Both the position numbers and the translations under genes were made by a program. The notes below the pieces were generated by a model that saw only the letters and a list, made by a program, of their open reading frames with translations, did no database searches and had not been told where the DNA came from. Below are positions 20,075 through 37,040 of a stretch of 42,014 nt of DNA, piece by piece; the stretch's first letter is position 1; each line of letters starts with the position of its first letter. This stretch comes from Bacteroidota bacterium (GTDB lineage Bacteria > Bacteroidota > Ignavibacteria > Kapaibacteriales > NICIL-2), in contig JAIBAE010000036.1 in assembly GCA_019695345.1 (NCBI GenBank), forward strand, positions 1-42,014, given 5' to 3'.

Positions 20075-21307
20075 CTATTGCTTAATAAGAGTTACAAAAT
20101 GATTTCCCGAAGTTGTTGAAACCTTAGTTAAATACATTCCGGTTGCAAGCTCGGAAACATTTGCCTGAATACTGTTACTTTGGTCATTTGCTTCTGCCTT
20201 GGTAACAAAGTCTCCGTTTACTGTGTAAATCTCGATGGATTTAATAGTTGTGCTTTGGTTTGAGAAGTTAATTCTGAGCATGTTTGATACGGGATTATTA
20301 TACGATAGTTCGGGTGAAAACGTGGTTTCGGTTACTTCGGTTTTGGGTGTTGTGGTTGTAAGCAGAATTATATCGTTATCGGTACTGCCGTATATGTAAT
20401 CGTCGTTATGAGTGATTGAGCGTGTTGTAGTTGTGTTGTTGTTAAAATTTTTCCAAGTAATACCTTTGTTGTTTGTGACATACACACCTTTGGAAGTAGC
20501 TGCATAAACGGTTCCGGTGTTGTCGGTTGCAAACTGAAAAACCTGATAGTTCAAGACGTTGTGAGGAATATCATATAAGACACTCTTGTTCCATGTTTCG
20601 CCGTTGTTGGTAGTTGAATACACTTCGTTTAATCCACCTGCTATGATAGTACCGTTGCTTTGTATTGAAAGTGCAGTAATGGTTGGAAGCATTGCAGATG
20701 TTTGAGAAACGGATTCCCATTGATTATTGGTAAGATTGTAGTGTAAAACACCATGAGAATCTGTACCTGCATATAACTCGTTTGACGAACTCGACAAACA
20801 CGTAATGTCAGTATCAATCAATCCGTTGTTAAGTGCTGTCCATGTTATACCATCATCGTTTGATGATTGTACTCCTTTGCCATACGCACTTAGATATAGA
20901 TAGTTATTATTGATTGTAATTTGCCAGTATTGGTCTAACTCGGTACGTTGAGTAGAAGGGGAAATGAGTGTTGTCCAGTTTTGTAAGGTGTTGTCGGATG
21001 ACTTGTATAATCCGTATCCTCCTGTGGCAACATAGATTGTACCATCGTGAGTTTTAGAGATACCAAAAATACTACGTGTAGGAAAGTTGACTTGATTCCA
21101 TAGATTAGTTATGGCGGTATATCTGAACAAGCCTGTGCCGGAAGCAACAAGAATTGTATCATTATGTAATACAGCTGCTAAACGAATTGATGTGGGTTTG
21201 TTTTTATTGGTGTTTGGTACTGTTTCCTGGCAGAATGCCGATTGCAATATTATTGTTACAAACAGAAATGTAGTAGTAACTATACGATGGTGTAAAGCTT
21301 TTCTCAT
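20075..21307 (-). CDS. T9SS-exported beta-propeller (BNR-like) repeat protein
   Basis: 410 residues. The ATG at 21307 is preferred: AGGAG precedes it by 7 nt and it begins directly with a signal peptide (MRKALHHR, then TTTFLFVTIILQSAFCQ). Residues about 30-325 contain repeated units of the photosynthesis/sialidase BNR kind (GTIYVATGGYGLYKSSDN, NELYAGTDSHGVLHYN, GTVYAATSKGVYVTNNKGITWK), which fold as a beta-propeller. Residues 335-410 form a type A T9SS sorting domain (YNNPVSNMLRINF, VNGDFVTKAE, ELATGMYLTKV). The protein should cross the outer membrane by the type IX system and end on the surface or in the medium. No catalytic residues are claimed; the ligand is unknown. The first 19 in-frame codons upstream are not thought to be coding. 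Confidence 0.82.
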   Translation of the reverse strand: MRKALHHRIVTTTFLFVTIILQSAFCQETVPNTNKNKPTSIRLAAVLHNDTILVASGTGLFRYTAITNLWNQVNFPTRSIFGISKTHDGTIYVATGGYGLYKSSDNTLQNWTTLISPSTQRTELDQYWQITINNNYLYLSAYGKGVQSSNDDGITWTALNNGLIDTDITCLSSSSNELYAGTDSHGVLHYNLTNNQWESVSQTSAMLPTITALSIQSNGTIIAGGLNEVYSTTNNGETWNKSVLYDIPHNVLNYQVFQFATDNTGTVYAATSKGVYVTNNKGITWKNFNNNTTTTRSITHNDDYIYGSTDNDIILLTTTTPKTEVTETTFSPELSYNNPVSNMLRINFSNQSTTIKSIEIYTVNGDFVTKAEANDQSNSIQANVSELATGMYLTKVSTTSGNHFVTLIKQ

Positions 21308-21613
21308 AATGCTCTCCTGATAAAGTTTTGGGTTAACGATTGTATTGTTTTGATGATAATACAAACAGATTGTTTCAGCGTTGTGAACTGTGTTGTGCGG
21401 TGAGTTCTACGCGAACGTAACAGGTAGGTTGCGTGTAAAAAATATGGTTAACACCAATTTAACGATGAGTTTAAATGTTAAACAAGAACGTCAAATATGT
21501 TCTGATAAATACAGCGTAAAACTACACTGTAGATGCGGTAGGAGAGTAGTTTAATTGCCTATCAAAAAACCATTGACGGCAAAATGTAGCAATTCAAAAA
21601 ATTAACGATTGAG
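21308..21613. other. 306-bp intergenic stretch with no gene
   Basis: It lies between the starts of the T9SS propeller gene and the end of the Kir channel gene (both minus), so it should hold the propeller gene's promoter. I see no clear TTG-N19-TAnnTTTG, no RNA gene and no full copy of the interspersed repeat; a stretch around 21395-21420 is faintly similar to the repeat's 5' box. Confidence 0.5.
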
Positions 21614-22540
21614 TTAGGGGAGTTCCACTCTATCAAACTCGTGAACACGTTCCATATCAAATTCAATCATGCCGTCTTCGCGTGTAAAATAACTTATTAC
21701 AAAGCGTCCGCCTTCAACAATATCATCGGCTGTATAACTAAATCTTGAATGCACCGTTTGGCTGAAAGTGTCGTCGAATCCTTTTATCATTATAATAACC
21801 TGAAACTCCATTTGCTTAAGTTCGGGAATACTCAGGTTAAACATTGGACTGTCTTCGTTTATTCTGTGTACCAACGTCCACGATGTTGGTAACATTACTA
21901 CCGTATTCCTTTCAAGTTCCATCTTCATATATCTTCGGGTGGGTTTGTTGTTGTCTTCTGTTTTAATCATGCACAGCACTTCGGCTGATAGTTCCATCAT
22001 AATATTATCTCGCAGGTTCGCTACTCTAAACATTAAAGCTCGTCCGCCATTGTGTGGTGTGATAAGCATATTCTTACTATATACTAAACGCGCTGTAGGT
22101 CTGGAAAAGCGACCGTATAACAAACCGGTTATCAACGCCACATAGAGTAACCCTATAAAGATTTCTACAATTGTTACCGCATTAGTAAGGATTCCGGATG
22201 GAGATATATTCCCATACCCTACAGTTGTAAAAGTATGTATGCTGAAATAAAATGTACTTAACAACGGGTTCATAGATGTAGGTGGTTCTACGCCGTGGAG
22301 ATTCTCCAAACCGCAAAGTAGATAGATAAGCGCAAATACAAGGTTTATTACAATAAAACCAATGGCTATGATGCTAAAGAAACGTCCCCACGTAGTACTG
22401 ATTAAATAGGTATATGGTGTAAATGCAGATAACGGCACATTGGTTCGCACAACATTATAACTGCCATCGTTATTAATTACTCTGCGTAAATTGCCACTTA
22501 ACTTTTCACCTAAACCGGGGTCGAGTGATTGTCTTGCCAT
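21614..22540 (-). CDS. Inward-rectifier-type potassium channel (KirBac-like)
   Basis: 308 residues, the usual KirBac length. A slide-helix region with a polar N terminus (1-50) is followed by an outer helix (about 54-77, FFSIIAIGFIVINLVFALIY), the pore loop with K+ filter TVGYG (106-110) and the inner helix (about 118-143, TNAVTIVEIFIGLLYVALITGL). The cytoplasmic immunoglobulin-like gating domain (about 150-300) carries Kir landmarks: RPTARLVYSKNMLITPHNG, ALMFRVANLRDN and a TSWTLVHRINEDSP block. It should conduct K+ across the inner membrane as a tetramer; the gating ligand is unknown. It is divergent from the NifU-domain gene, with 71 bp between the starts. Confidence 0.93.
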   Translation of the reverse strand: MARQSLDPGLGEKLSGNLRRVINNDGSYNVVRTNVPLSAFTPYTYLISTTWGRFFSIIAIGFIVINLVFALIYLLCGLENLHGVEPPTSMNPLLSTFYFSIHTFTTVGYGNISPSGILTNAVTIVEIFIGLLYVALITGLLYGRFSRPTARLVYSKNMLITPHNGGRALMFRVANLRDNIMMELSAEVLCMIKTEDNNKPTRRYMKMELERNTVVMLPTSWTLVHRINEDSPMFNLSIPELKQMEFQVIIMIKGFDDTFSQTVHSRFSYTADDIVEGGRFVISYFTREDGMIEFDMERVHEFDRVELP

Positions 22541-24730: not shown

Positions 24731-27700
24731 ATGATTCGTGCTAATGGATTACCTTTTCTTTTAACCCTTCTTGTTTTGGTGTGTAGCAGTAATGCCGCAC
24801 AACAGTATTCTGTACCCAAAGGTTTTATGCCAAATAAAGGTCAAGTGTTGTATGGCAACCAGGACTCACGGAAGGTTGTGAAGTACTATGCTGAGTTAGG
24901 TGGAGTAAGGGTGTTCTTCCGTGATGCAGGGTATTCGTATGTTGTGTTTAAATATCCCGATATAGACCGCCACTCGCGTGATTACATTGAACAGTTAGAG
25001 AAGAATCCGATACAACAATTCCGAGTGGACGTTGACTTTGTTGGCGCTAACCCTATTGCCACCATAGAAGAACAAGAACAAAACACAGGTTTCAAAAATT
25101 ATTACCATACTTCTATTGGCGAGCCCGTTTTGGGAGTGAGTTCATATAAGCAGATTACCTACAAGAACATTTACAATGGTATTGACCTGAAGTTTACTAT
25201 AAGCGAGACCGGATTAAAGTATGATTTTATAGTTGGTGTTGGTGCCGACCCATCAAAAATAAAGATGAAGTATTCCGAGCCAATAACGTTAAGTACATTC
25301 GAGGATACAAGAACAAACGAACTCTTCCTGCACACACCTGTAGGTGACATTGTAGATCAATCGCCAATCTCGATTCAAGAAGGTAAAACAATTTCAACAT
25401 CTTTCAAACACAATACCGACAACACAATTTCATTTACCTTCCCGCTTGGCTACAACACAAAAAAAGAATTAGTGATTGACCCGGCTATTGTTTGGTCGAC
25501 ATATTTGGGGGGGACAAAAGATGAACAAGTTATTGGAACGACATTGGATAATAATGATAATTTTATTGTAAGTGGTTATACGATAAGTATGGATTTCCCC
25601 ATGTTAGGGCATAGCAGAGATGGAGTAGCAAGTACAATAGATTTTTTGTTGGTAAAGTTTGATAAAAATGGAATTTATAAATGGAGTGTAGTTGAGGGTG
25701 GGAACAATTCTGATTTGTTCACTTCAGTTACAAATGACAAGGTAAACGATATTTATGTTACTGGTTTTTCTAAAAGTACAGATCTAGCTTTTCCGGGAGC
25801 ACCAAATCCCAATCTACGTGGGCAGAACGATGTTGTTATCATTAAATATAATGGGAACGATGGTAATAAAATCTCAGGAACATTTTATGGTGATGCTGAG
25901 GAAGACAATGCCTATGCAATTAAGTTAGATAGTGATGGAAAGGTTTTAGTTGCCGGGAAAACCGACAGTAAAGACTTTCCTTCTACTAATGGTAAATACA
26001 CAGTAAAAATGGCAAATACCGATGGCTTTTTGATGAAGTGCGAACCTACTACATTCAAGATTATTTGGTCAACATTTTATGGTGGACGTGACGGAGATAG
26101 ATTGTTTTCGTTATCAGTAGATTCAAAGGATAATATCTATGTAGTTGGCGATACCCGCAGTCCCGATTTACCGGGAATGAATTCTAATTCAATGCAGGCA
26201 ACATTTTCAACTTTAAGTAATGCATCTGATTTTGCGATTGTTTCATTTACCAAGAACGGACAGCAACGGTGGTCCACCTATTTTGGGGCTGAAGGAGAAG
26301 AAGTAGCTTATTCGGTTGATTGTAGATTTGATAGAGTTGCTGTTGCTGGTTTTGTCAGTTCACCATTTCTGAAGTTGTTTGGTAAATATCATAGTGAGTG
26401 GACTGCCTTTAGTGATGGTTTTGTATTAGTACTTGATACGTTAGGTGTACCGCAATGGTCTACATACATAGGTGGTACTATGGGTGATGCTTTAAACTTT
26501 ATTAAGATTGATAAAGATACTTCAGTTGTAGCAGGTGGTAGCACATTTAGTAGGGACTATCCGCTACTCAGACCATTTATTGTTAATACAAAGAATAGCA
26601 GTCCTACTAATTTTGATATTGTGCTTACAAAGTTTGAATCAACAGGAAAAATGTTGTGGTCAACCTTTTTAGGTGGAAATGGAGATGACCAGTGTGAAAA
26701 TGGATTTGGTGATATAGATGAAAGTGGTAACGTATATGTTGCTTTCCATACACAGAGTAATAACAACATAATTAAAAATCAAACATATTCATATAAAGGT
26801 GGATTAGATGCATACATAACAAAGTTATGTATGCAATACGCAGAAGCAAAGATTATCTCAGGTGATTCGGTGATATGCGAAGGTAATTCTTCAATACTAT
26901 CAACTTCCGCCGGATTATCCAATATCAAGTGGAGTCCCGGCGGAGAAAATACACCAACAATAACTGTTACAAAAGCAGGGAAGTATTTTTATACAGCCGA
27001 TGCAGGTACTGAATGTACTGGCTTAGTTTCTGATACTATAACAATAACTACCAGACCAGGGATAGTTGTAAAAGTAGACTCTTCTGATAAGTTACAACTG
27101 TGCGAAGGGAAAACTGTTAAGTTGTTTTCTAAAACAAAGTATAAGATTTATAACTGGGTGGATGGAAATAGTTCTTCTATATCAACTAAAGATACATTGC
27201 AGGTTTCAACACCGGGAACATATCATCTTGAGGTTACCGATTCTACGGGTTGTTCAGGAAAATCTACCAGTGTAATAGTATCTAACTTTACTAAACCAAA
27301 TCAAGCATATAGATTTATTATTAACGGAACTGTAACGGTTGATAGCCAGTTTGTATATAGTAATTTATGTTTGGGTGATATTGTAGAAGTTACGCCTTTG
27401 TATGCTACTACAAGTACTGCGCTTGTAGTTTGGAAAGACAACACCTTAAATGCAAAATATACCATTACAAAAAATGATTCAACCTTTGCAATCTTTACCG
27501 ATGAACATAACTGTCAGTGGACATTGCCAGAAGTAAAATTCTATTTCCGCCAACCAAGTAAACCCCTTGTAAGTGGTGTTGATAGTACTTGTGTTAATTC
27601 AGTAGTAACACTTACAGCTACTCTCGCAAACAGTCCCGGAATAAAATACGAATGGCTTACCGATGGCGGTTCGATAGTTGGAAGTTCAGATACATCCGAC

Positions 27701-29044
27701 GTTAAAGTACAATGGAGTACAGGTGGATTAAAACAAATACGTGTACTTGGTGCCAAAGGAGTACGGTGCGTTGATACTTCTATAGTAAAAACTGTATTTG
27801 TACAGTCAGGTGTAACCGGCAAAATCACAGCTGTTGGTAATACGTTATTATGCGAGAATGAATCTGTGCAACTTAATGCACCGGATGGATTCACGGGGTA
27901 TCAATGGAATAATACAACAGCTACAAAGAGTCTGACCGTTACAACTCCCGGACAGTACTTTGTACAGTTCCAAACAACAACGGGCTGTTTTGGATACGAT
28001 ACAATTATTATAGGTAAACGGTTGGTTTATACTACATCACCTGTTCAGAATAGTTTCGGCTCGGTTACAATTACTAATTCGTCGCAGCAAAGATTGGTGA
28101 TTTATAATTTTAGTTCGGAGATAATGAACCTTTCCGGTGGGCTGTTGGATGGAAGGCATTATAAAATAGATTCTACTCAACCACCCATGCAAAATGGTAT
28201 ATCGCCCAAAGATAGCATAATAGTATATGTTTCATTTGTACCACAAAACATAAATACAATTCGTGATACTATCAAAGTAACAGTAAATGCACCTTGTGCC
28301 GATTCTGTGCTATTTTACTTAGAAGGAATTGGAGTTGGCATTCCCCCTAAACCTCAATTACGATTCAGAGTACACGATGTATCAATACAGCCACACCAAG
28401 ATACAGTACATATACCTATTGATGCTTGGTTAGAGCCAAATGTTGCAACCTTATCACTCGATACATTGATATTTACATTAGCGTATAATCCTACAATTTT
28501 TCATATAACTAAAGCTACAAAAGGTAATGTAACAAACGAATTTTATAAACGCCCTCAACAATCGTATGCAACAGTAAGGATTCCATTAACAGTGCTTGCA
28601 TTGGCTCCACAGACCGTAACAGAAATCATTGCTGATGTACTTATAGGCGATGTAGAGCGTGATTCTCTTTTTGTAGCATCTGCTGATGTGGCACCATCTT
28701 CCGATAAATCAGTAAATACTATAGGTGGTAATGTGATTTATTCCGGTTTGTGTAAAGAGGGTGGAACCCGGTTAATTGGTCAATCTCAATCAATTGCAAT
28801 GATGCTGAAGCCAAATCCGGGTGGCGACGATGTTACTATCACCGTTCATAATTCCGAAAAAGGTTTTTGTACACTCACTATTTATAACACTCAAGGCGAG
28901 GAAGTTTGGAATAACTCGTGGGTAGCTCTACCTATGCTCCAAACTGAACACCGTTTGCAGCAGCAGTTACCATCGGGTATTTATCAGGTTGTTTGCCGCA
29001 CACCATCGCAGATAATACAGGAACGTTTGGTTATAGTACGATAG
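24731..29044 (+). CDS. Giant T9SS-sorted surface protein (DUF7948 - SBBP propeller - Ig-like)
   Basis: 1437 residues from the ATG at 24731, which opens a signal peptide (GLPFLLTLLVLVCSSNA). An earlier TTG is not used. Domains in order: DUF7948-like (about 25-250, MPNKGQVLYGN, VRVFFRDAGYSYVVF); SBBP/seven-bladed propeller repeats (about 250-690, with repeated WSTYLGG, DSKDNIYVVGDT and DNNDNFIVSGYT units); several Ig/PKD-like modules with Cys (about 690-1080); a choice-of-anchor-like module ending in NAPCADS; a cohesin-like module (about 1200-1340); and a T9SS type A domain (about 1355-1437). It is probably a secreted adhesin exported by T9SS. It heads a run of three similar genes. A hairpin terminator at 29088-29116, embedded in a repeat copy, follows. 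Confidence 0.88.
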   Translation: MIRANGLPFLLTLLVLVCSSNAAQQYSVPKGFMPNKGQVLYGNQDSRKVVKYYAELGGVRVFFRDAGYSYVVFKYPDIDRHSRDYIEQLEKNPIQQFRVDVDFVGANPIATIEEQEQNTGFKNYYHTSIGEPVLGVSSYKQITYKNIYNGIDLKFTISETGLKYDFIVGVGADPSKIKMKYSEPITLSTFEDTRTNELFLHTPVGDIVDQSPISIQEGKTISTSFKHNTDNTISFTFPLGYNTKKELVIDPAIVWSTYLGGTKDEQVIGTTLDNNDNFIVSGYTISMDFPMLGHSRDGVASTIDFLLVKFDKNGIYKWSVVEGGNNSDLFTSVTNDKVNDIYVTGFSKSTDLAFPGAPNPNLRGQNDVVIIKYNGNDGNKISGTFYGDAEEDNAYAIKLDSDGKVLVAGKTDSKDFPSTNGKYTVKMANTDGFLMKCEPTTFKIIWSTFYGGRDGDRLFSLSVDSKDNIYVVGDTRSPDLPGMNSNSMQATFSTLSNASDFAIVSFTKNGQQRWSTYFGAEGEEVAYSVDCRFDRVAVAGFVSSPFLKLFGKYHSEWTAFSDGFVLVLDTLGVPQWSTYIGGTMGDALNFIKIDKDTSVVAGGSTFSRDYPLLRPFIVNTKNSSPTNFDIVLTKFESTGKMLWSTFLGGNGDDQCENGFGDIDESGNVYVAFHTQSNNNIIKNQTYSYKGGLDAYITKLCMQYAEAKIISGDSVICEGNSSILSTSAGLSNIKWSPGGENTPTITVTKAGKYFYTADAGTECTGLVSDTITITTRPGIVVKVDSSDKLQLCEGKTVKLFSKTKYKIYNWVDGNSSSISTKDTLQVSTPGTYHLEVTDSTGCSGKSTSVIVSNFTKPNQAYRFIINGTVTVDSQFVYSNLCLGDIVEVTPLYATTSTALVVWKDNTLNAKYTITKNDSTFAIFTDEHNCQWTLPEVKFYFRQPSKPLVSGVDSTCVNSVVTLTATLANSPGIKYEWLTDGGSIVGSSDTSDVKVQWSTGGLKQIRVLGAKGVRCVDTSIVKTVFVQSGVTGKITAVGNTLLCENESVQLNAPDGFTGYQWNNTTATKSLTVTTPGQYFVQFQTTTGCFGYDTIIIGKRLVYTTSPVQNSFGSVTITNSSQQRLVIYNFSSEIMNLSGGLLDGRHYKIDSTQPPMQNGISPKDSIIVYVSFVPQNINTIRDTIKVTVNAPCADSVLFYLEGIGVGIPPKPQLRFRVHDVSIQPHQDTVHIPIDAWLEPNVATLSLDTLIFTLAYNPTIFHITKATKGNVTNEFYKRPQQSYATVRIPLTVLALAPQTVTEIIADVLIGDVERDSLFVASADVAPSSDKSVNTIGGNVIYSGLCKEGGTRLIGQSQSIAMMLKPNPGGDDVTITVHNSEKGFCTLTIYNTQGEEVWNNSWVALPMLQTEHRLQQQLPSGIYQVVCRTPSQIIQERLVIVR

Positions 29045-29049
29045 TTGTA

Positions 29050-29117
29050 TTTGCTATCGCCTGACGGCACCAAGCCTCAATTTTTTCAAGAACCTTTCTA
29101 TGCCGGAAAGGTTCTTT
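29050..29117 (+). repeat. Interspersed stem element, copy 11 (CGGCA/TGCCG arms)
   Basis: It begins 5 bp after the stop of the giant surface gene, in its direction. TTTGCTATCGCC, TGA, arm CGGCA (29065-29069), 31-nt spacer, arm TGCCG (29101-29105), then GAAAGGTTC. Its 3' part also forms a local terminator hairpin (next entry), which excludes the long stem while it forms. Confidence 0.75.
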
Positions 29118-29118
29118 T
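29088..29118 (+). terminator. Intrinsic terminator of the giant surface gene
   Basis: An 11-bp perfect stem AAGAACCTTTC (29088-29098) with GAAAGGTTCTT (29106-29116) and a 7-nt loop TATGCCG, then TTGC. It is built from the 3' box of the repeat, so part of the repeat serves as a terminator here. Confidence 0.65.
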
Positions 29119-29190
29119 GCTTTCTATCACGATTATCGTATATATATGCTGAAGGGTGAATCCATGCCGATGAAGGTTGTGTTGAAACAT

Positions 29191-29217
29191 ACGGTTTGGT
29201 GCGGTTTGCGAAGCATA
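29191..29217 (-). repeat. Interspersed stem element, partial copy 12 (5' box only)
   Basis: Minus-strand TATGCTTCGCAAACCGCACC followed by AAACCGT matches the 5' box and first arm of copies 2 and 6. No matching second arm is found. It faces copy 11. The rest of the 396-bp gap (29045-29440) holds no gene; the surface gene's Shine-Dalgarno sits at its end. Confidence 0.5.
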
Positions 29218-29440
29218 CTATAGCTATCAAATTTTGTGAAGTAATGTTTTTCTAACACCCGCCGATAATTACCCGTGGCAACGATAGGACGCGCTGCTAA
29301 TCTTACCGATTTCAACCTTCACGGACGAACAATCCTGTTTTCATCACCAACGGAATGTGCATGAGTTTCTGCAAGGAAATGCAGGTGCCTACTGTGTACA
29401 CTACACTTCTTGCGTTCACTGCCATTCTCGGAGGACGGGT

Positions 29441-31513
29441 ATGGTACGTTCAGTTTTCATACAGTTTATATCTCGACTGGTTGTTACCAGCATATTTACA
29501 TTTATAGCTTTTTGCGTACAGGGTTTTGCAGGCGGAGATCCAATCATAGTTGATGGCGTTCCATCGGTATATATATGCCCTAATGGTACAATAAAGATTC
29601 ATGGCACCGATACGGTGGCCCAACAAGGGTGCACGTATAAATGGGAGCCATCGGATTACCTTTCGTCAGAATCTGATTGCTCACCCTATGTAACAGGTGT
29701 AAAAACACAATTATATATCCTTACTAAAACCGCATCAAATGGAATCCAAACAAGAGATACATTAATGGTTTGGGTCAGAGATTTAACACCACTTCAATTT
29801 GCAACCGATAAGGATAGATGTCAAGGATTTGTATCAACCTATGCACTTGGTGGATTCGATGAAAACGACCCTATAAACCCTCCGATATGGAGATCATCCG
29901 GTGACGCTCTTGGCAGAATAATTACAGGGCAGGGAACAACCGTGATGAATATAATTTGGGATGGTTACGGAGAGGGAATTGTACACGCTGAACTTATGTA
30001 TGCAAATTCCGGGTGTAAGCAGAGTGGTGAACACCATGCTACAATAATTCCAAAGCCAACAGTTACAATTACATCAACCGGAAGTACAACAATCTGCCCG
30101 GGTACTTCTGTACAACTCGATGCGGGTGAGGGGTTCTCTACGTACATATGGTCAGATGGTCAGCACACAAGATTTATTAATGCAAGTAAAGAAGGTGGAT
30201 ATTCTGTTACAGTAACCACACCAAACGGTTGTGAAAATACTTCTCCGCCGGTAGAAGTAGTTTACCATTATGTTATGAAACCAATTATTGCAGGGCAATC
30301 GGTAATGTGTATGGGTGAACAAGTGACTCTTTACGCACTTACTGGTTATTCATATTACGAATGGACCGATGGCTCAACCGGTATCACAAAACCTATAACA
30401 CAGGCAGGTTCCTATACAGTTAAAGTAATAGATAATAACGGATGTGTGTCTGTATCAGAACCTTTTACTGTACGTTACCATGATATTGGATTAATACCTG
30501 AAAAAAGAGTTTTAGATTTTGGCAGTAGAGAGCTTGGTAAAGTGGTTGAAAAACCTGTGTGGTTAAAGAATATAGGTAGCGAGACTATAAAAATAAACGA
30601 GATAGGTTTAGATGACATTCAAGAGAAGTTTAGATTGATAAAATCTGAACCAGATTTGCCTGTACAACTTCACCCCGGTGACTCCATACAATTGCGAGTT
30701 GAATTTAAGAGTCAAGAACTTGGAGAGTTTGCATCTACAATTGTATACAAAGTCACTGTGCCATGTCCGCAAATTGGATTTATTACCGTAACGGGAGTTG
30801 CTGCGGATACATCATTAGATATATCGTTGTATATTCCTCATACACAAATGGAAACAGGAAACGATAATACGAAACTGCCCATTTATGCAAAGGTCAACTA
30901 TCCAGTTGATGAGAGAATAACCGGAGTTATGTTAAAAGTTGAGTTGAGTTGGAATCATTCGATTTTTCATTCAGAGGGAAATCTTACTAAAGGTACGCTA
31001 CTGCATGATTCAATGAGTAACGCTGAACAGTTTGTTACTATTGAGATACCTAATGTAGATTTATCTTCGGATTCTACAGAGGTAACGTCAATTTTAGGTT
31101 CAGCATTGGCATCCAAGTCATTTTATACTGACGTAAAGATTCGATCATATTCGTGGAGTAATCTACCAAGAGCATCGAGACTTTATGCCTACGATGGGAG
31201 TATTACTCTAAGCCAATACTGCTTTCCCAGAAGTATCAAATTCAGTGACTTCAGACCAATGAGCGTTGAAGTTTATCCAAACCCAATTCAACAGTTTGGA
31301 ACGTTAAAACTCACAACGAGTATAATTGGATGGCATGAAATTGAAATTTATGGCTTTACCGGTGAATTGGTACAACGCCAGACAATACATAATCAGCAAA
31401 AAGGTAGTGGTTTCATTTCGATTGACTGTTCAATGTTACAAGCAGGTGTATACCCTGTAGTAATATATAACAACAATGAATTGATACGGACTTTTATAAC
31501 CGTTTTGAAATAA
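29441..31513 (+). CDS. T9SS-sorted surface protein with Ig-like, choice-of-anchor and cohesin-like modules
   Basis: 690 residues. The ATG at 29441 is chosen: GGAGG lies 6 nt before it and a signal peptide follows (FIQFISRLVVTSIFTFIAFC). An in-frame upstream extension to 29357 lacks these signs. Modules: Ig/PKD-like repeats with conserved Cys (about 40-340, e.g. STTICPGTSVQLDAGEGFST and SVMCMGEQVTLYALTGYSYY); a choice-of-anchor D-like domain (about 345-450, RVLDFGSRELGKVVEKPVW, ending in VTVPCPQIG); a cohesin-like domain (about 455-590) ending in SITLSQYCFPRS; and a T9SS type A domain (about 608-690, VEVYPNPIQQFGTLKL). It is a paralogue of the genes before and after. Likely a surface adhesin; the binding target is unknown. 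Confidence 0.85.
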   Translation: MVRSVFIQFISRLVVTSIFTFIAFCVQGFAGGDPIIVDGVPSVYICPNGTIKIHGTDTVAQQGCTYKWEPSDYLSSESDCSPYVTGVKTQLYILTKTASNGIQTRDTLMVWVRDLTPLQFATDKDRCQGFVSTYALGGFDENDPINPPIWRSSGDALGRIITGQGTTVMNIIWDGYGEGIVHAELMYANSGCKQSGEHHATIIPKPTVTITSTGSTTICPGTSVQLDAGEGFSTYIWSDGQHTRFINASKEGGYSVTVTTPNGCENTSPPVEVVYHYVMKPIIAGQSVMCMGEQVTLYALTGYSYYEWTDGSTGITKPITQAGSYTVKVIDNNGCVSVSEPFTVRYHDIGLIPEKRVLDFGSRELGKVVEKPVWLKNIGSETIKINEIGLDDIQEKFRLIKSEPDLPVQLHPGDSIQLRVEFKSQELGEFASTIVYKVTVPCPQIGFITVTGVAADTSLDISLYIPHTQMETGNDNTKLPIYAKVNYPVDERITGVMLKVELSWNHSIFHSEGNLTKGTLLHDSMSNAEQFVTIEIPNVDLSSDSTEVTSILGSALASKSFYTDVKIRSYSWSNLPRASRLYAYDGSITLSQYCFPRSIKFSDFRPMSVEVYPNPIQQFGTLKLTTSIIGWHEIEIYGFTGELVQRQTIHNQQKGSGFISIDCSMLQAGVYPVVIYNNNELIRTFITVLK

Positions 31514-31582
31514 TTTAGTTAACAAACATCAATAATACGTTGAGTGGTTTCTACAAAGGCACTAATTACACTTTTTGAGCCG

Positions 31583-31590
31583 TATATTTG
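31583..31590 (+). promoter_or_regulatory. Possible -7 element for the third T9SS surface gene
   Basis: TATATTTG inside CCGTATATTTGCAG; an almost identical CCGTATATTTGCA occurs before the OmpA gene (34815). It would leave a 5' leader of about 160 nt. No TTG is found 19 nt upstream. Confidence 0.4.
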
Positions 31591-31755
31591 CAGCAGGTTC
31601 TCTCCAACCGGAATATTCAGAAGCCACTCAAGGTATATTGTTAGAAAAATACCATGAAAAAAATGCATATACATACGCCAAAGGTTTTGCAGAAAATCTG
31701 CTTGGCACAATATATGCGGAATATGGTGCAATCACCACACATTCCGGGAATATCT

Positions 31756-34614
31756 ATGAAGTATCCTGCAATCATAGTTGCATGCTTATTTATTTTCCAG
31801 TTCAGTTCATTTGCACAACTCGTTGCAAATGCAGGTCCAGATATCGATTTATGTGAAGGATATTCAGCCAAAATTGGCTTACCTCCAAGTGGAGGCAAGC
31901 CACCATACAAGTATCAGTGGGGACCCACATTGGGTCTAGATAATCCAAATTCTGAAAGTCCGGTTGTAACACCCACTCAAAGCGTTACAGAATATTGGGT
32001 AAAAGTTACCGATGATGGCGGGTTAACAAATTTTGATACAGTTGTTGTACGCCGACACCCAGCACCTAAAGCTGATGCTGGTATTAATATTAATACTTGC
32101 ATTGGTACAACTGTCACCCTTGGAGGCTCTCCCAGTGCGTATTTTGGTACACCGCCTTTTATTTATAAGTGGAGTTTCTTACCCGCTAATGTTGTTAACC
32201 CGAGTAGTCCTAACCCAACGTATATCGCCGAGCGAGTAGGTTATTCACGACATGTGTTACAAGTAATTGATTCCAAGGGATGTGAAGCAACATCCGATAT
32301 AACTGTTACTATTATTCAACCTGTAAAAATTGATGTTGGGAACGATATTACTATTTGCGCCAATACTCCTAAACAAATTGGTTCGTATAGTATGGCAACC
32401 AGTACAAATGGAAGGATAACTAATTATCGTTGGACTCCATCGTATGGATTAAGTACAGATAATATTGCTAACCCAACTGCCTTTCCTGCAACTACAACTA
32501 AATACTATGTTACTGCTTTGGATGAAAAAGGCTGTCAAGCTACTGACAGTGTCTTAGTAACAGTAAAACCTTCAATGAAGTTGACACTTCGTAACAATGT
32601 TGAGTTATGTCCTGATAAAGATATTCCACTCACTTCACCAGGATTTGTAACCGGGGGTGTTGCACCTTATAAATATAAATGGATAGTAAAAGATGAAAAT
32701 GGCAATGTACAACCTTCTTTCAAAGACTCAACCGTTGAAACGCCGGTTGTTAAAGCAAGTAATACAAGGATCTATGAAGTAATCGTAACAGATGCTCAAG
32801 GATGTACCGCCAGAGGGTTAATTCAGGTTTCTGTAAAAACTGCATCACGTCCTACATTTACGATTCCACCAGAGCTTTGCCAAGAGAAAGAGTTGACATT
32901 TGGGATTGGTAATGCTTCGGGTAGTTATGAATGGTTAGTATCAGGTGCTGATGGCCAAATACTAAATGGTAATAACAAAAGAGAAGTTACTATGATATGG
33001 CACAATAGTGGCGTGTCAACTATATCAGTTAGGGTAATGGATAAAGAAACAGGGTGTGAGTATTTTGGAACTACAACAATCACAATTAAACCTCATCCAA
33101 ACCCTATCATCACAAATCAAGGACGCTCTGTTTTATGTCCTGGTGAATCATCTAAACTTGATATTGGGAGAGATTATCTAAATGTTTGGTGGTCATCCGG
33201 ACCAACCAATACACGTAGTATTATTGTAAACACTTCAGGAACATTTACAGTGTTTGTACAAGATTCAAACGGGTGTACGAACAGATCAAATCCAATAACC
33301 ATTAATGTTACACCGAAGCCAGAACCCGGAATACAAGGTATTCAAAAGTTATGTCCTAATACCTCTATTCAACTTACAACTGTTAATACACTAGGAACAG
33401 GGAAATTTTATAAAACTTATCAATGGTCAACAGGTGAAGTTACACCTCAGATAACAGTGTCAAAGGCAGGGGCTTATACTGTTACTGTTACTGATTCCAC
33501 TGATTGCCCAGCAATTTCACCTATTCATACTGTAGTAGATAACCCATTGCAGGTGGAAACTACAACTACATCCTTTTTAGATTTAGAAACAGAATTTGAT
33601 TATCCAACAAAAACTGTATGGTATAAAAATACAGACGACGAGGACTTAGTTCTTACTAATTATGCTTTTATTAGTCCATTAGTAATCCCTGAGTTAACAG
33701 TACAATCCATTGATATAGATGGAAGACCAGTACCAGTTAATAACATAGCAGGTAATGTATTGAAAGTAGGCCAAAAATTGAACTTTGTACTTAAGTATGT
33801 GCCAATGATTCCGGATAGTGTTACCTACTCAATAGTATTAAATGTTTCCGCTCCATGTACTACTTATGACCCGGTAACAATACCAATTAGAGCAGAGTCG
33901 TACGATAAACGGATGACATCAATTGCCTCAGTTACAGATGTAACTGCACCTGTTGGTGCCTATGATGTACATATTCCACTTATGATTAAATTTATCAATG
34001 CAGAGGACTCCGTTATAAATGCCTCTTTAGAAGCTAAAGTTAGAATAAACGCAAGATTATTCGACCCGAGATATATTACTAATGGAACCATACTTAGCCA
34101 TGATACAACATCAGATTTTTGGCATGTGTTATGGATAAGATTTGATAATGTTACTATTAGAGATACCGACCCGATTAAACTCACTGATATAGTAGGTACT
34201 ACACTTGCAACAACATTCTTTCAGGATTCAATGTTTCTTGATAAAATTGTTTGGGATCCAAATACAGTTGTAAAGGTACCAAGAGTTCGTTTAACTAACG
34301 GGATCTTGAAATTAGCAGAGTATTGCTTCCCAAGAAATGTGGTAATTTCAAATCAAGAAAAAACTCAAATTAGTATTAACCCTAACCCATCGTCCGAATT
34401 AGTAAAGCTGCATGTTAACACTAATATAACCGGTGAATATAAGGTAGAATTGTATGCTGCCGATGGAGCAAAGATTCTAACTAAAAAAGTTAACATCGAA
34501 AAAGGAAGTACCATTGTGAATTTGGATGCCACTAATTATGCTAATGGTATTTATCCTGTAGTTGTATCAACACCAACACATGTCGAAATTCTTAATTTGG
34601 TAATAGATAAATAG
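31756..34614 (+). CDS. T9SS-sorted surface protein with multiple PKD/Ig-like repeats
   Basis: 952 residues. The ATG at 31756 opens a clear signal peptide (MKYPAIIVACLFIFQFSSFA). A longer in-frame ORF from 31654 would place 34 polar residues before it. Repeats of about 90-100 residues follow, each with a Gly/Asp-rich start, a Cys and a TYxVxVTDxxGC-like end: ANAGPDIDLCEG (about 24), ADAGININTCIG, VKIDVGNDITICAN, then shorter Ig-like units to about 620. The tail repeats the family plan: choice-of-anchor-like region ending in VSAPCTTYD, cohesin-like region ending in LKLAEYCFPRN, and T9SS type A domain (about 870-952, SINPNPSSELVKLHV, ATNYANGIYPVVV). Surface adhesin by architecture. Confidence 0.85.
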   Translation: MKYPAIIVACLFIFQFSSFAQLVANAGPDIDLCEGYSAKIGLPPSGGKPPYKYQWGPTLGLDNPNSESPVVTPTQSVTEYWVKVTDDGGLTNFDTVVVRRHPAPKADAGININTCIGTTVTLGGSPSAYFGTPPFIYKWSFLPANVVNPSSPNPTYIAERVGYSRHVLQVIDSKGCEATSDITVTIIQPVKIDVGNDITICANTPKQIGSYSMATSTNGRITNYRWTPSYGLSTDNIANPTAFPATTTKYYVTALDEKGCQATDSVLVTVKPSMKLTLRNNVELCPDKDIPLTSPGFVTGGVAPYKYKWIVKDENGNVQPSFKDSTVETPVVKASNTRIYEVIVTDAQGCTARGLIQVSVKTASRPTFTIPPELCQEKELTFGIGNASGSYEWLVSGADGQILNGNNKREVTMIWHNSGVSTISVRVMDKETGCEYFGTTTITIKPHPNPIITNQGRSVLCPGESSKLDIGRDYLNVWWSSGPTNTRSIIVNTSGTFTVFVQDSNGCTNRSNPITINVTPKPEPGIQGIQKLCPNTSIQLTTVNTLGTGKFYKTYQWSTGEVTPQITVSKAGAYTVTVTDSTDCPAISPIHTVVDNPLQVETTTTSFLDLETEFDYPTKTVWYKNTDDEDLVLTNYAFISPLVIPELTVQSIDIDGRPVPVNNIAGNVLKVGQKLNFVLKYVPMIPDSVTYSIVLNVSAPCTTYDPVTIPIRAESYDKRMTSIASVTDVTAPVGAYDVHIPLMIKFINAEDSVINASLEAKVRINARLFDPRYITNGTILSHDTTSDFWHVLWIRFDNVTIRDTDPIKLTDIVGTTLATTFFQDSMFLDKIVWDPNTVVKVPRVRLTNGILKLAEYCFPRNVVISNQEKTQISINPNPSSELVKLHVNTNITGEYKVELYAADGAKILTKKVNIEKGSTIVNLDATNYANGIYPVVVSTPTHVEILNLVIDK

Positions 34615-34822: not shown

Positions 34823-34886
34823 CAAAGCGAATCACTTCATGGTTCGCTTTCTTTTTTAATGGATTGAATGAAAACCCGGAGAGGTC

Positions 34887-37040
34887 ATGTACCGTTACGT
34901 TGTTATTGCAATTGTACTGTTATCAGGTAGTTTAAGTTTAGCACAAACAAACACCCCAAGTAAACCAAAGTTAGAACCTTGGATTTATGTTGGTGGATTT
35001 GCCGGATATAACAATAATAATTTTACAGCTGATTTTAGCAAACTACCGGGTGTTCCAAACTGTTGTCCGTTATACGAAACCGGTACCGGAGGTGGTTTTG
35101 CCATCGGAGGGTTAGCTGAAGTACCTTTGCTCAAATTCTTACGATTAGAGACGAGAATTGGATATACTACATTAGGCGGAAGGTTGTTTAAACAAGAACA
35201 AATTGGTAACACTTCGGAGATTGGCGGAACAAACAACAAAACTGAACCGGTAATAACCAATCACGAACTGTTTACCACACTTAACGGCTTATCAATCGAG
35301 CCAAGTGTAACTACGATTTTATTTTCCAGAGTGCGGGCATCGATTGGTTATAGATTAACGTATCTTACTACTACTACATTTGAACAATCGGAAACGATTT
35401 CGTCACCCGGATATGTTTATTTTGTGTCTGATTCATCGCGTGTTCGGAATCATGTTACCGGAGATTTACCGGAAGTTAATACCATTCAGAATTCGATAAG
35501 TGTTGGGGTAGGATTAGACCTTCCTGTTAGCAGCAAAGCAACATTTACTCCTGAAATCAAATATTACATGGCAATGGATAAAATATCCAGCGTGTCGTGG
35601 AGTGTTTCAACATTACAATTTGGGGCTTCATTCCGGTATGCACTATATCCACCACCTCCGCCAAGAATTATCATTGATACCATTATTCAACGTGATACGG
35701 CACTTAAGTTAATTGTTGGCGCACAACAAGAGCAATTACGTTTGCTTGACTCTAAGATTACCAACGATGAAAAACGCGAGATGGATGGCGAGACAGAGGT
35801 TATTACCCGTACAACCACCATCACAGAAAAGTACCAAAAAGAGGTGCCCAAATTGGCCGACCTAAATGTAGCAGTTAAAGCATATAGTGTAGATGCAAAC
35901 GGTCAACAAAAACCACTTGCAAACTTTATAGTAGAAGAAACAGAGTTTGAAGAGAATTATCCATTGTTACCCCAAGTGTTTTTTCCAGAGGGTGTAGGGG
36001 AGTTAAATACATCTACCATGAAAACGTTATCCCACGATGAAATACCTACGTTTTCGGAGTTTGCTCTCCCGCACAATACTCTTGATGTATACCATGAATT
36101 GTTAAACATCGTTGGTTTAAGAATGACCAACCGACCAGATGCCAAGTTGACCATTGTAGGGTGTAATAATAATACCGGCGTAGAAAAAAATAATCGTGAG
36201 TTATCGGCAAGAAGGGCTGAATCAGTGAAAAAGTATCTGACTGAAACATGGAATATTAGCCCAAGTAGGATAATCACAAAGTCACAGAATTTGCCTTCTT
36301 CGCCTGCTAATTTAACATCAGCAGAAGGTTTGGAAGAAAACCGCCGTGTGGAAATGTATTCTGATGATATTGAAATCTTAAAACCAGTTTCCATTAAGGA
36401 TGTAACAGTAGAAGCAAATCCGCCAATTGTAGATGTTGTTCCAACTATTAGCTCCGAAGCAGGAATTGCAAATTGGTCTGCTGAAATTGAGCAGGAAGGT
36501 GTATCTCTAAGAAAGTTCAAAGGCACCGATAACCCTGAAAAATATACCTGGAAAGTTACCGACAAACCTTATCCAAAGTTAGAGCAACCGGTTGATATTA
36601 CTTATACTGTTACAGATAAAACCGGACAGAAAAAAGATGCAACTGCGTCGCTTGCCGTGCAACAGCTTACTATTAAAAAGAAACGTTACGAACAGAAAGA
36701 TGACAAACGTATCGACCGTTTTTCTCTCATTGTCTTCGACTTTAATAAAGCCGATTTAAATGGTGATAACAAGCGTATAGTTCAGGAAGTTAAGCAACGT
36801 ATTACACCGGAATCTAAAATTACTATTGCCGGGTATGCCGATAGATCTGGAGACTCTGAATATAACCGAGAACTTGCGCGCCGCCGTTGTGTAGAAACAC
36901 AAAGAAGTATTGGATTGAATGATTCAAATTCTACCATTAATCCAATAGGTAGCGATGTGCTTTTATATGATAACAATACACCCGAAGGACGTTCATATTC
37001 AAGAACAGTTCAAGTGATAATAGAAACACCTGTAAAGTAG
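34887..37040 (+). CDS. OmpA-family outer-membrane protein with N-terminal barrel and two OmpA domains
   Basis: 717 residues. A signal peptide (1-20, VIAIVLLSGSLSLAQ) is followed by a beta-barrel of about 230 residues related to the protein at 733-1584. A coiled, charged linker follows (DEKREMDGETEVITRTTTIT). Then comes an OmpA_C-like domain (about 370-500) with NRELSARRAESVKKYL and EENRRVEM, an Ig-like spacer (about 510-600), and a second OmpA domain (about 610-717) with VFDFNKADL, GYADRSGDSEYNRELARRR and EGRSYSRTVQVII. OmpA domains bind peptidoglycan diaminopimelate through conserved Asp and Arg, so it probably tethers the outer membrane to the wall at two points. GGAG lies 7 nt before the ATG. 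Single-gene unit, converging on the fibronectin gene. Confidence 0.88.
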   Translation: MYRYVVIAIVLLSGSLSLAQTNTPSKPKLEPWIYVGGFAGYNNNNFTADFSKLPGVPNCCPLYETGTGGGFAIGGLAEVPLLKFLRLETRIGYTTLGGRLFKQEQIGNTSEIGGTNNKTEPVITNHELFTTLNGLSIEPSVTTILFSRVRASIGYRLTYLTTTTFEQSETISSPGYVYFVSDSSRVRNHVTGDLPEVNTIQNSISVGVGLDLPVSSKATFTPEIKYYMAMDKISSVSWSVSTLQFGASFRYALYPPPPPRIIIDTIIQRDTALKLIVGAQQEQLRLLDSKITNDEKREMDGETEVITRTTTITEKYQKEVPKLADLNVAVKAYSVDANGQQKPLANFIVEETEFEENYPLLPQVFFPEGVGELNTSTMKTLSHDEIPTFSEFALPHNTLDVYHELLNIVGLRMTNRPDAKLTIVGCNNNTGVEKNNRELSARRAESVKKYLTETWNISPSRIITKSQNLPSSPANLTSAEGLEENRRVEMYSDDIEILKPVSIKDVTVEANPPIVDVVPTISSEAGIANWSAEIEQEGVSLRKFKGTDNPEKYTWKVTDKPYPKLEQPVDITYTVTDKTGQKKDATASLAVQQLTIKKKRYEQKDDKRIDRFSLIVFDFNKADLNGDNKRIVQEVKQRITPESKITIAGYADRSGDSEYNRELARRRCVETQRSIGLNDSNSTINPIGSDVLLYDNNTPEGRSYSRTVQVIIETPVK

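Follow-up and report, generated by a model that had tools for sequence, protein, structure and literature searches.

A cysteine-bearing tail of T9SS type A proteins and the outer-membrane barrel encoded beside it: a putative surface-attachment pair in Kapaibacteriales

The window analysed here, a stretch of 42,014 nucleotides from a member of the Kapaibacteriales, carries three consecutive genes for T9SS type A proteins and, directly behind them, a gene for an outer-membrane barrel fused to an OmpA-like part (Table 1). The gaps between the four genes measure 396, 242 and 272 bases. Terminator-like hairpins are found after gene 1 (29088-29116, +) and between gene 3 and the barrel gene (34824-34850, +), and the number of hairpins in this region equals that in shuffles. 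An initial annotation had drawn attention to the three T9SS genes; the fourth gene (34887-37040), with two adjacent cysteines in a predicted surface loop, and the genome-wide recurrence of the module were not part of it. Further upstream, the window also encodes an inward-rectifier-type potassium channel (21614-22540, -; IRK_C 78 bits).

Table 1. Coordinates of the three tail genes, the barrel gene and their features (positions in the window)
Feature	Position	Strand	Description or basis
Gene 1	24731..29044	+	1437 aa; hydrophobic N-terminus, DUF7948, SBBP repeat, Ig-like repeats, ASH-like domain, cohesin-like region (by alignment), Cys motif, T9SS-A domain
Gene 1, upstream tail Cys (Cys1189 in NAPCADS)	28295..28297	+	
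Gene 1, pre-CTD motif SGLCKEGGTRL (Cys1341)	28742..28774	+	
Gene 1, T9SS type A domain	28811..29041	+	TIGR04183 27.2 bits, cut-off 23
Gene 2	29441..31513	+	690 aa; Ig-like repeats, HYDIN/ASH domain, cohesin-like region (by alignment), Cys motif, T9SS-A domain
Gene 2, upstream tail Cys (Cys442 in TVPCPQI)	30764..30766	+	
Gene 2, pre-CTD motif SQYCFPRSI (Cys594)	31211..31237	+	
Gene 3	31756..34614	+	952 aa; PKD and Ig_7 repeats, ASH-like domain, cohesin-like domain, Cys motif, T9SS-A domain
Gene 3, Ig-like (choice-of-anchor type) domain; Cys701 (SAPCTTY) at 33856-33858	33607..33900	+	AlphaFold2 tail model, Foldseek
Gene 3, cohesin-like domain	33919..34317	+	AlphaFold2 model; Foldseek, cohesins 6kgc, 5n5p
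Gene 3, pre-CTD motif AEYCFPRNV (Cys857), opening a low-confidence linker	34315..34341	+	Sequence and model
Gene 3, T9SS type A domain	34375..34611	+	Just under TIGR04183 cut-off
Partner gene, eight-stranded outer-membrane barrel fused to OmpA-like C-terminal part	34887..37040	+	717 aa
Partner gene, membrane-spanning barrel with eight long strands plus a short additional one	34983..35645	+	AlphaFold2 pLDDT 78, pTM 0.71
Partner gene, adjacent cysteines (VPNCCP) of loop L1, which links strands 1 and 2 on the predicted extracellular side	35061..35066	+	Barrel model

That the genes starting at 24731, 29441 and 31756 end alike, as had been proposed from the sequence, is borne out by BLASTP comparisons that include the tail (E 2e-15 for genes 1 and 2, 2e-51 for genes 2 and 3, 6e-6 for genes 1 and 3). 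The alignment of genes 2 and 3 covers nearly the whole of gene 2, phmmer detects pairs 1-2 and 2-3 and not pair 1-3, and the three tails can be aligned over approximately 400 columns; judged by these alignments, the tails are homologous beyond chance. All six cysteine motifs named by the initial annotation (NAPCADS, TVPCPQI and SAPCTTY, and SGLCKEGG, SQYCFPRS and AEYCFPRN) lie where it had placed them. Its assignment of type A sorting domains (CTDs) holds for genes 1 and 2, which score 27.2 and 24.1 bits against a TIGR04183 cut-off of 23, and falls slightly short of that cut-off in gene 3 (22.2 bits); Pfam Por_Secre_tail exceeds its own cut-off in gene 2 only. The type B domain is absent from genes 1 to 3 in the NCBIfam search (E up to 1), which lists type A instead. 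Pfam CHU_C matches gene 1 weakly (17.5 bits, cut-off 27). Hydrophobic N-termini, as candidate signal peptides, are visible at the chosen starts. A further T9SS-A protein of the window (20075-21364, -), encoded far from the barrel gene, has no cysteine ahead of its sorting domain and serves as an internal control.

The domains preceding the sorting domain can be defined to differing degrees. A choice-of-anchor-like segment had been read in all three tails; HYDIN, an ASH/HYDIN-type Ig domain, confirms it in gene 2 (40.6 bits, cut-off 25.5), remains sub-threshold in gene 1 and has no match in gene 3. The cohesin-like segment finds no Pfam cohesin match up to E 1 in the three genes, and the likeness is therefore one of fold only: the tail of gene 3, modelled by AlphaFold2 from an alignment of five sequences that included all three window tails (pLDDT 75, pTM 0.49), is predicted to form three beta domains (Ig-like, cohesin-like and sorting domain), for which Foldseek returns among solved structures the cohesins 6kgc and 5n5p (TM approximately 0.60 by target length) as well as the SPD-2 domain of CEP192.

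A possible function for two cysteines in one tail would be an internal disulfide between the APC cysteine and the pre-CTD cysteine, which stiffens the anchor module and leaves the neighbouring barrel unrelated to it. The distance between the two cysteines is 152, 152 and 156 residues in genes 1, 2 and 3, and a second cysteine is found 133-160 residues upstream of the pre-CTD cysteine, at near-constant spacing, in 38 of the 53 tails that are long enough, compared with 3 to 10 for other intervals of equal width. The last Ig-like repeat of a tail gene on contig C144 (L003) lacks, by eye, a cysteine present in its sister repeats, so that its other cysteine may pair elsewhere. We nevertheless regard this explanation as improbable, because the remaining 15 of the 53 tails lack the upstream cysteine and retain the pre-CTD one (such tails include L045, L048 and L051), because the motif is tied to barrel genes, and because the model puts the pre-CTD cysteine of gene 3 where the cohesin-like domain gives way to a low-confidence linker leading into the sorting domain. 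As the whole story, an obligatory internal disulfide is ruled out by the tails that keep the motif without an upstream cysteine. The earlier suggestion of a conserved disulfide or attachment module consequently stands in part. The cysteine module is real and widespread, and 'attachment module' is more likely to be right than 'internal disulfide', since the pre-CTD cysteine goes together with a cysteine of the adjacent barrel gene.

This barrel gene contains an OmpA domain (PF00691, 70.4 bits), and its transmembrane domain, modelled from three sequences, has OmpA, NspA and OmpX among its nearest solved folds. In the model, long loops alternate with short turns and the vicinal cysteines fall into the long loop L1. 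An eight-stranded barrel begins and ends on one face of the membrane, which for the attached OmpA part should be the periplasmic one; the loop is therefore predicted to be exposed outside the cell. The other cysteines of the protein are single (frame positions 431 and 673). TIGR03519 (PorP/SprF) is not among the best 25 of 28 NCBIfam families for the gene, and the closest named relative, with 66% identity, comes from a metagenome bin of Candidatus Kapaibacterium sp. (a genus in Bacteroidota according to NCBI). At the other end of the window, with just 732 bases of sequence upstream of it, lies a small barrel gene (733-1584, +) that belongs to the same family by a weak match, lacks the OmpA part and has a C-x-C (VNCDCPRF) in the matching loop.

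The genome from which the window derives encodes about two dozen such barrel-OmpA paralogues, most of which directly follow a T9SS-A gene with a pre-CTD cysteine. In its strict definition (C-x2-7-R-x0-1-[LIVF]) the motif most commonly takes the form C-x2-GG-x-RL, and in the window also YCFPR. Within this genome, 18 T9SS-A genes directly precede a barrel; the strict motif is present in 15 of them, and the cysteine, by hand label, in 16. A sample of 57 T9SS-A sites from the rest of the genome contains the strict motif once, or three times if Lys is accepted in place of Arg; the controls comprised the 17 top-scoring sites and 40 spread over the list. The sole control with the strict motif (L116, contig C69) is the gene immediately 3' of a barrel. 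With at least 150 T9SS-A sites in the genome and the strict motif in only one of the sampled controls, the pre-CTD cysteine motif is ruled out as a general feature of type A sorting domains. Cysteines as such are not unusual in the 30 or so residues next to the CTD: 17 of the 57 controls have one (16 with a slightly shorter stretch). Narrower patterns cover only part of the upstream tails, which makes the motif a family of forms: C-x2-G[GD]-x0-2-R is found in 8 of 18 tails of this genome and 35 of 47 others, and YC[FY][PA]R in one and five, respectively.

Not every such tail has a barrel at hand. T9SS-A genes with the motif cysteine on contigs C74 (L002) and C144, as well as a relative of the tail module with a cysteine at the motif place on contig C17 (L075), have no barrel match on the same contig; these genes may use barrels encoded elsewhere. 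The C144 tail gene is followed by an ORF that resembles a sigma factor by eye. Two barrel matches each contain one stop codon within the matched stretch, namely C27:25464-27596 of the same genome (TAA) and G017:C1:354005-354718 in another genome (TAG; in a tandem pair), possibly as decayed copies or through end-of-frame effects.

The location of the motif directly ahead of the CTD, which PorU removes from type A proteins, also brings to mind a special PorU-type processing or glycolipid-attachment signal, with the barrel involved in sorting only, and PorU is indeed encoded in the genome. We give this explanation very little credence. The accessible part of PMC4804311 describes PorU of P. gingivalis as sequence-independent, the motif is missing from 56 of the 57 T9SS-A sites sampled away from barrels in a genome with at least 150 T9SS-A sites, and the cysteine of the barrel would be left unexplained.

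The barrel is found in all 41 genomes searched (the genome of the window and 40 relatives), with 7 to 35 matches each. Among 69 barrels from 33 relatives, a T9SS-A gene lies directly upstream of 49 (48 recognised by the CTD model, L183 by the tail model); one of these tails is masked, and the cysteine is present in 47 of the 48 readable ones. At loci L169, L180 and L182 a gene with a cysteine tail lies directly downstream of the barrel instead. The tails L183, L214 and L230 were found by the tail model and missed by our home-made CTD model. As the barrel search profile was built from 17 cysteine-bearing barrels and favours such matches, the frequencies on the barrel side have to be read with this in mind: the loop L1 cysteine is present in 88 of 92 barrels (23 from the genome of the window and 69 others, excluding the weak barrel frame L055), where its column ties for second place in conservation behind an invariant Trp, and a second, vicinal cysteine is present in 71 and absent from 21.

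Across the phylum, 296 genomes were surveyed, with at most nine barrel matches scored per genome and a tail profile likewise built from cysteine-bearing tails only. Twenty-seven genomes have at least eight barrel matches, and the same 27 have at least two tail matches. Another 17 have one weaker barrel match and no tail, and three have one borderline tail match and no barrel. Three of these single barrels, from genomes elsewhere in the phylum (L199-L201), show neither the loop cysteine nor a T9SS tail upstream.

The cysteines of tail and barrel also go together at the level of single pairs. Both are present in 83 of 94 tail-barrel pairs and neither in 7, while three pairs have the barrel cysteine only (L098, L209, L231) and one has the tail cysteine only (L170; Fisher 9e-8, ignoring kinship). 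Tail and barrel states were labelled by hand from sequence, those of the weakest barrel matches from the matched stretch alone (e.g. L240); a check of the barrel states of all 94 pairs against the alignment column gave no mismatch, and L153, which has masked bases, was excluded. In order to lessen the cysteine bias, all 51 barrel matches with E up to 1e-5 in three genomes (G001, G017, G031) were examined, although the profile that detected them was the same one. A tail gene directly precedes 30 of them, with both cysteines in 23, neither in 5, the barrel cysteine only in 2 and the tail cysteine only in none; among the 21 without an upstream tail gene, 11 have the loop cysteine and 10 do not, and 2 of those 11 have a cysteine-tail gene downstream. 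In these three genomes a cysteine-tail gene lies upstream of 23 of 36 cysteine barrels compared with 0 of 15 cysteine-less barrels (Fisher 2e-5).

On a barrel tree computed without the loop columns, changes of state number 5 for the barrel and 7 for the tail. Three well-supported independent contrasts gave on average 1.9 concordant cases, 0 opposite and 1.1 without difference (sign test p 0.5), so that a phylogenetic co-loss of the two cysteines is suggestive and not significant, the events being too few. A finer correspondence, in which two tail cysteines would match two barrel cysteines, was rejected for lack of association (Fisher 0.31): CC barrels occur with a second tail cysteine in 33 cases and without in 15, and single-C barrels in 6 and 6. 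Evolutionary distances of tails and barrels are correlated (Mantel r 0.55 for 17 pairs of the window's genome and 0.745 for 47 others; L061 and L153 left out), as are those of tails and OmpA parts (r 0.62 and 0.26, respectively) and of barrels and OmpA parts (r 0.355 over all 64). Since the tails of the window's genome track the OmpA part at least as well as the barrel, this co-divergence may reflect joint inheritance. It supports pairing without proving contact, as adjacent genes that duplicate together would correlate too.

Gene linkage and co-occurrence across genomes would be accounted for equally well if the barrel-OmpA protein were a cognate non-covalent carrier or anchor, as SprF is for SprB, that docks the Cys/Arg motif, with the cysteines pairing within each protein (the vicinal CC, and tail cysteine with tail cysteine) or binding metal. 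Trp replaces the tail cysteine in five of the seven pairs that have neither cysteine (L056 of the window's genome, L214, L215, L220 and L239), and these tails retain the Arg and some of its neighbours, so that docking without a thiol seems possible. Furthermore, searches of the window's genome that detected their positive controls returned neither DsbA (PF01323) nor VKOR (PF07884), which counts against a disulfide. By itself, however, non-covalent docking leaves both the conservation of the cysteines and their joint absence unexplained, given only four discordant pairs, and several tails have no other cysteine within 200 residues upstream of the motif cysteine with which it could pair (e.g. 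L045, L088, L089, L155). We therefore deem such a carrier unlikely, while attaching real weight to it.

The reading we prefer is that the tail constitutes a surface-attachment module with a counterpart in a dedicated outer-membrane protein of the adjacent gene, to which it is probably joined by an extracellular disulfide; we judge its chance to be slightly better than even. Its parts differ in strength. The pre-CTD cysteine motif, the loop L1 cysteine, the adjacency of the genes and their co-occurrence across genomes are established as far as sequence comparison reaches, the partnership of tail and barrel is well supported on the same basis, and we infer the disulfide bond between them.

According to this proposal, the substrate would leave the cell via the T9SS by the usual type A route, which is available since the genome encodes PorU (846 bits, cut-off 420) and PorV (263 bits, cut-off 250). 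The CTD would be cleaved off just after the cysteine motif, and the exposed tail cysteine would attack the strained disulfide formed by the vicinal CC of the barrel's loop L1, giving rise to an intermolecular disulfide. Where a tail has a second cysteine, the two may hold an internal disulfide in reserve and exchange it upon docking. If the periplasmic OmpA part binds peptidoglycan, the secreted protein would in this way be covalently tied to a wall-bound outer-membrane protein. The attack of the tail thiol on the vicinal CC at the cell surface is suggested by analogy with F. johnsoniae, in which SprF and PorG carry a twin-cysteine motif that forms disulfides with GldK in the periplasm; the accessible text of PMC12635249 interprets the SprF-GldK bond as an attack on a strained internal disulfide, and this exchange from twin cysteines sets a precedent for the CC described here. 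The 21 of 92 barrels without a second cysteine are a point against the CC-exchange step.

More broadly, we speculate that the pairs could represent an order-wide way of holding T9SS type A substrates by an extracellular disulfide to dedicated peptidoglycan-bound barrels, with CC exchange proceeding without a dedicated oxidase, many pairs per genome, and the Trp-for-Cys pairs as a non-covalent branch of the same docking site; for this wider picture we see a little less than an even chance. If true, it would add a route of surface display for type A substrates, hint at how members of a little-studied order equip their cell surface, and carry the recent discovery of disulfide-linked outer-membrane proteins in Bacteroidota over from the periplasmic side to the cell exterior. 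No description of a tail-barrel pairing of this kind was found in the literature searched, a body of text that leaves out most subscription journals.

Several known systems share features with the pair, as far as the accessible parts of the cited papers describe them. Like OmpA-type proteins, the partner combines an eight-stranded barrel with an OmpA domain; unlike them, it is paired with a T9SS gene and has a highly conserved loop L1 cysteine, neither of which is found in the homologs L199-L201. With the type A route (PorV shuttle, PorU sortase, A-LPS attachment) the pair has in common the sorting domain, as well as PorU and PorV encoded in the genome. Type A substrates use the general carrier PorV (PMC12618676, PMC12635249) and are then released or linked to LPS (PMC12635249), whereas here each would have a dedicated partner, of which the accessible text of PMC12618676 and PMC12635249 makes no mention. 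Like the SprF-GldK and PorG-GldK bonds, the proposed linkage would involve twin cysteines of an outer-membrane barrel and exchange to a partner cysteine (PMC12635249). In SprF and PorG, however, the cysteines (CXC) belong to the periplasmic C-tail and pair with the track lipoprotein GldK, in contrast to the predicted extracellular loop L1 and the secreted substrate proposed here.

A parallel in plan is offered by type B substrates. They are served by dedicated PorP/SprF carriers, to which an anchoring role is ascribed; in P. gingivalis the peptidoglycan binder PorE takes part in it (PMC9143113, PMC12618676). As with SprB-SprF and PG1035-PorP-PorE, the substrate gene stands beside its own barrel gene, several paralogous pairs occur per genome, and surface anchoring is proposed to proceed via the barrel and, with PorE, to peptidoglycan (PMC9143113, PMC12618676). 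Unlike in type B systems, the substrates here are of type A and conserved cysteines lie on the predicted extracellular side; moreover, the barrel has eight strands and a fused OmpA part, whereas PorP/SprF is a 14-stranded barrel of the FadL type (PMC9143113). A search of the window's genome for PorP/SprF (TIGR03519) gave no match, with the positive control also silent. Altogether, the pair resembles the type B arrangement in plan and departs from it in two defining features, the type B domain and the PorP/SprF barrel, and is best called a variant of the dedicated-partner plan.
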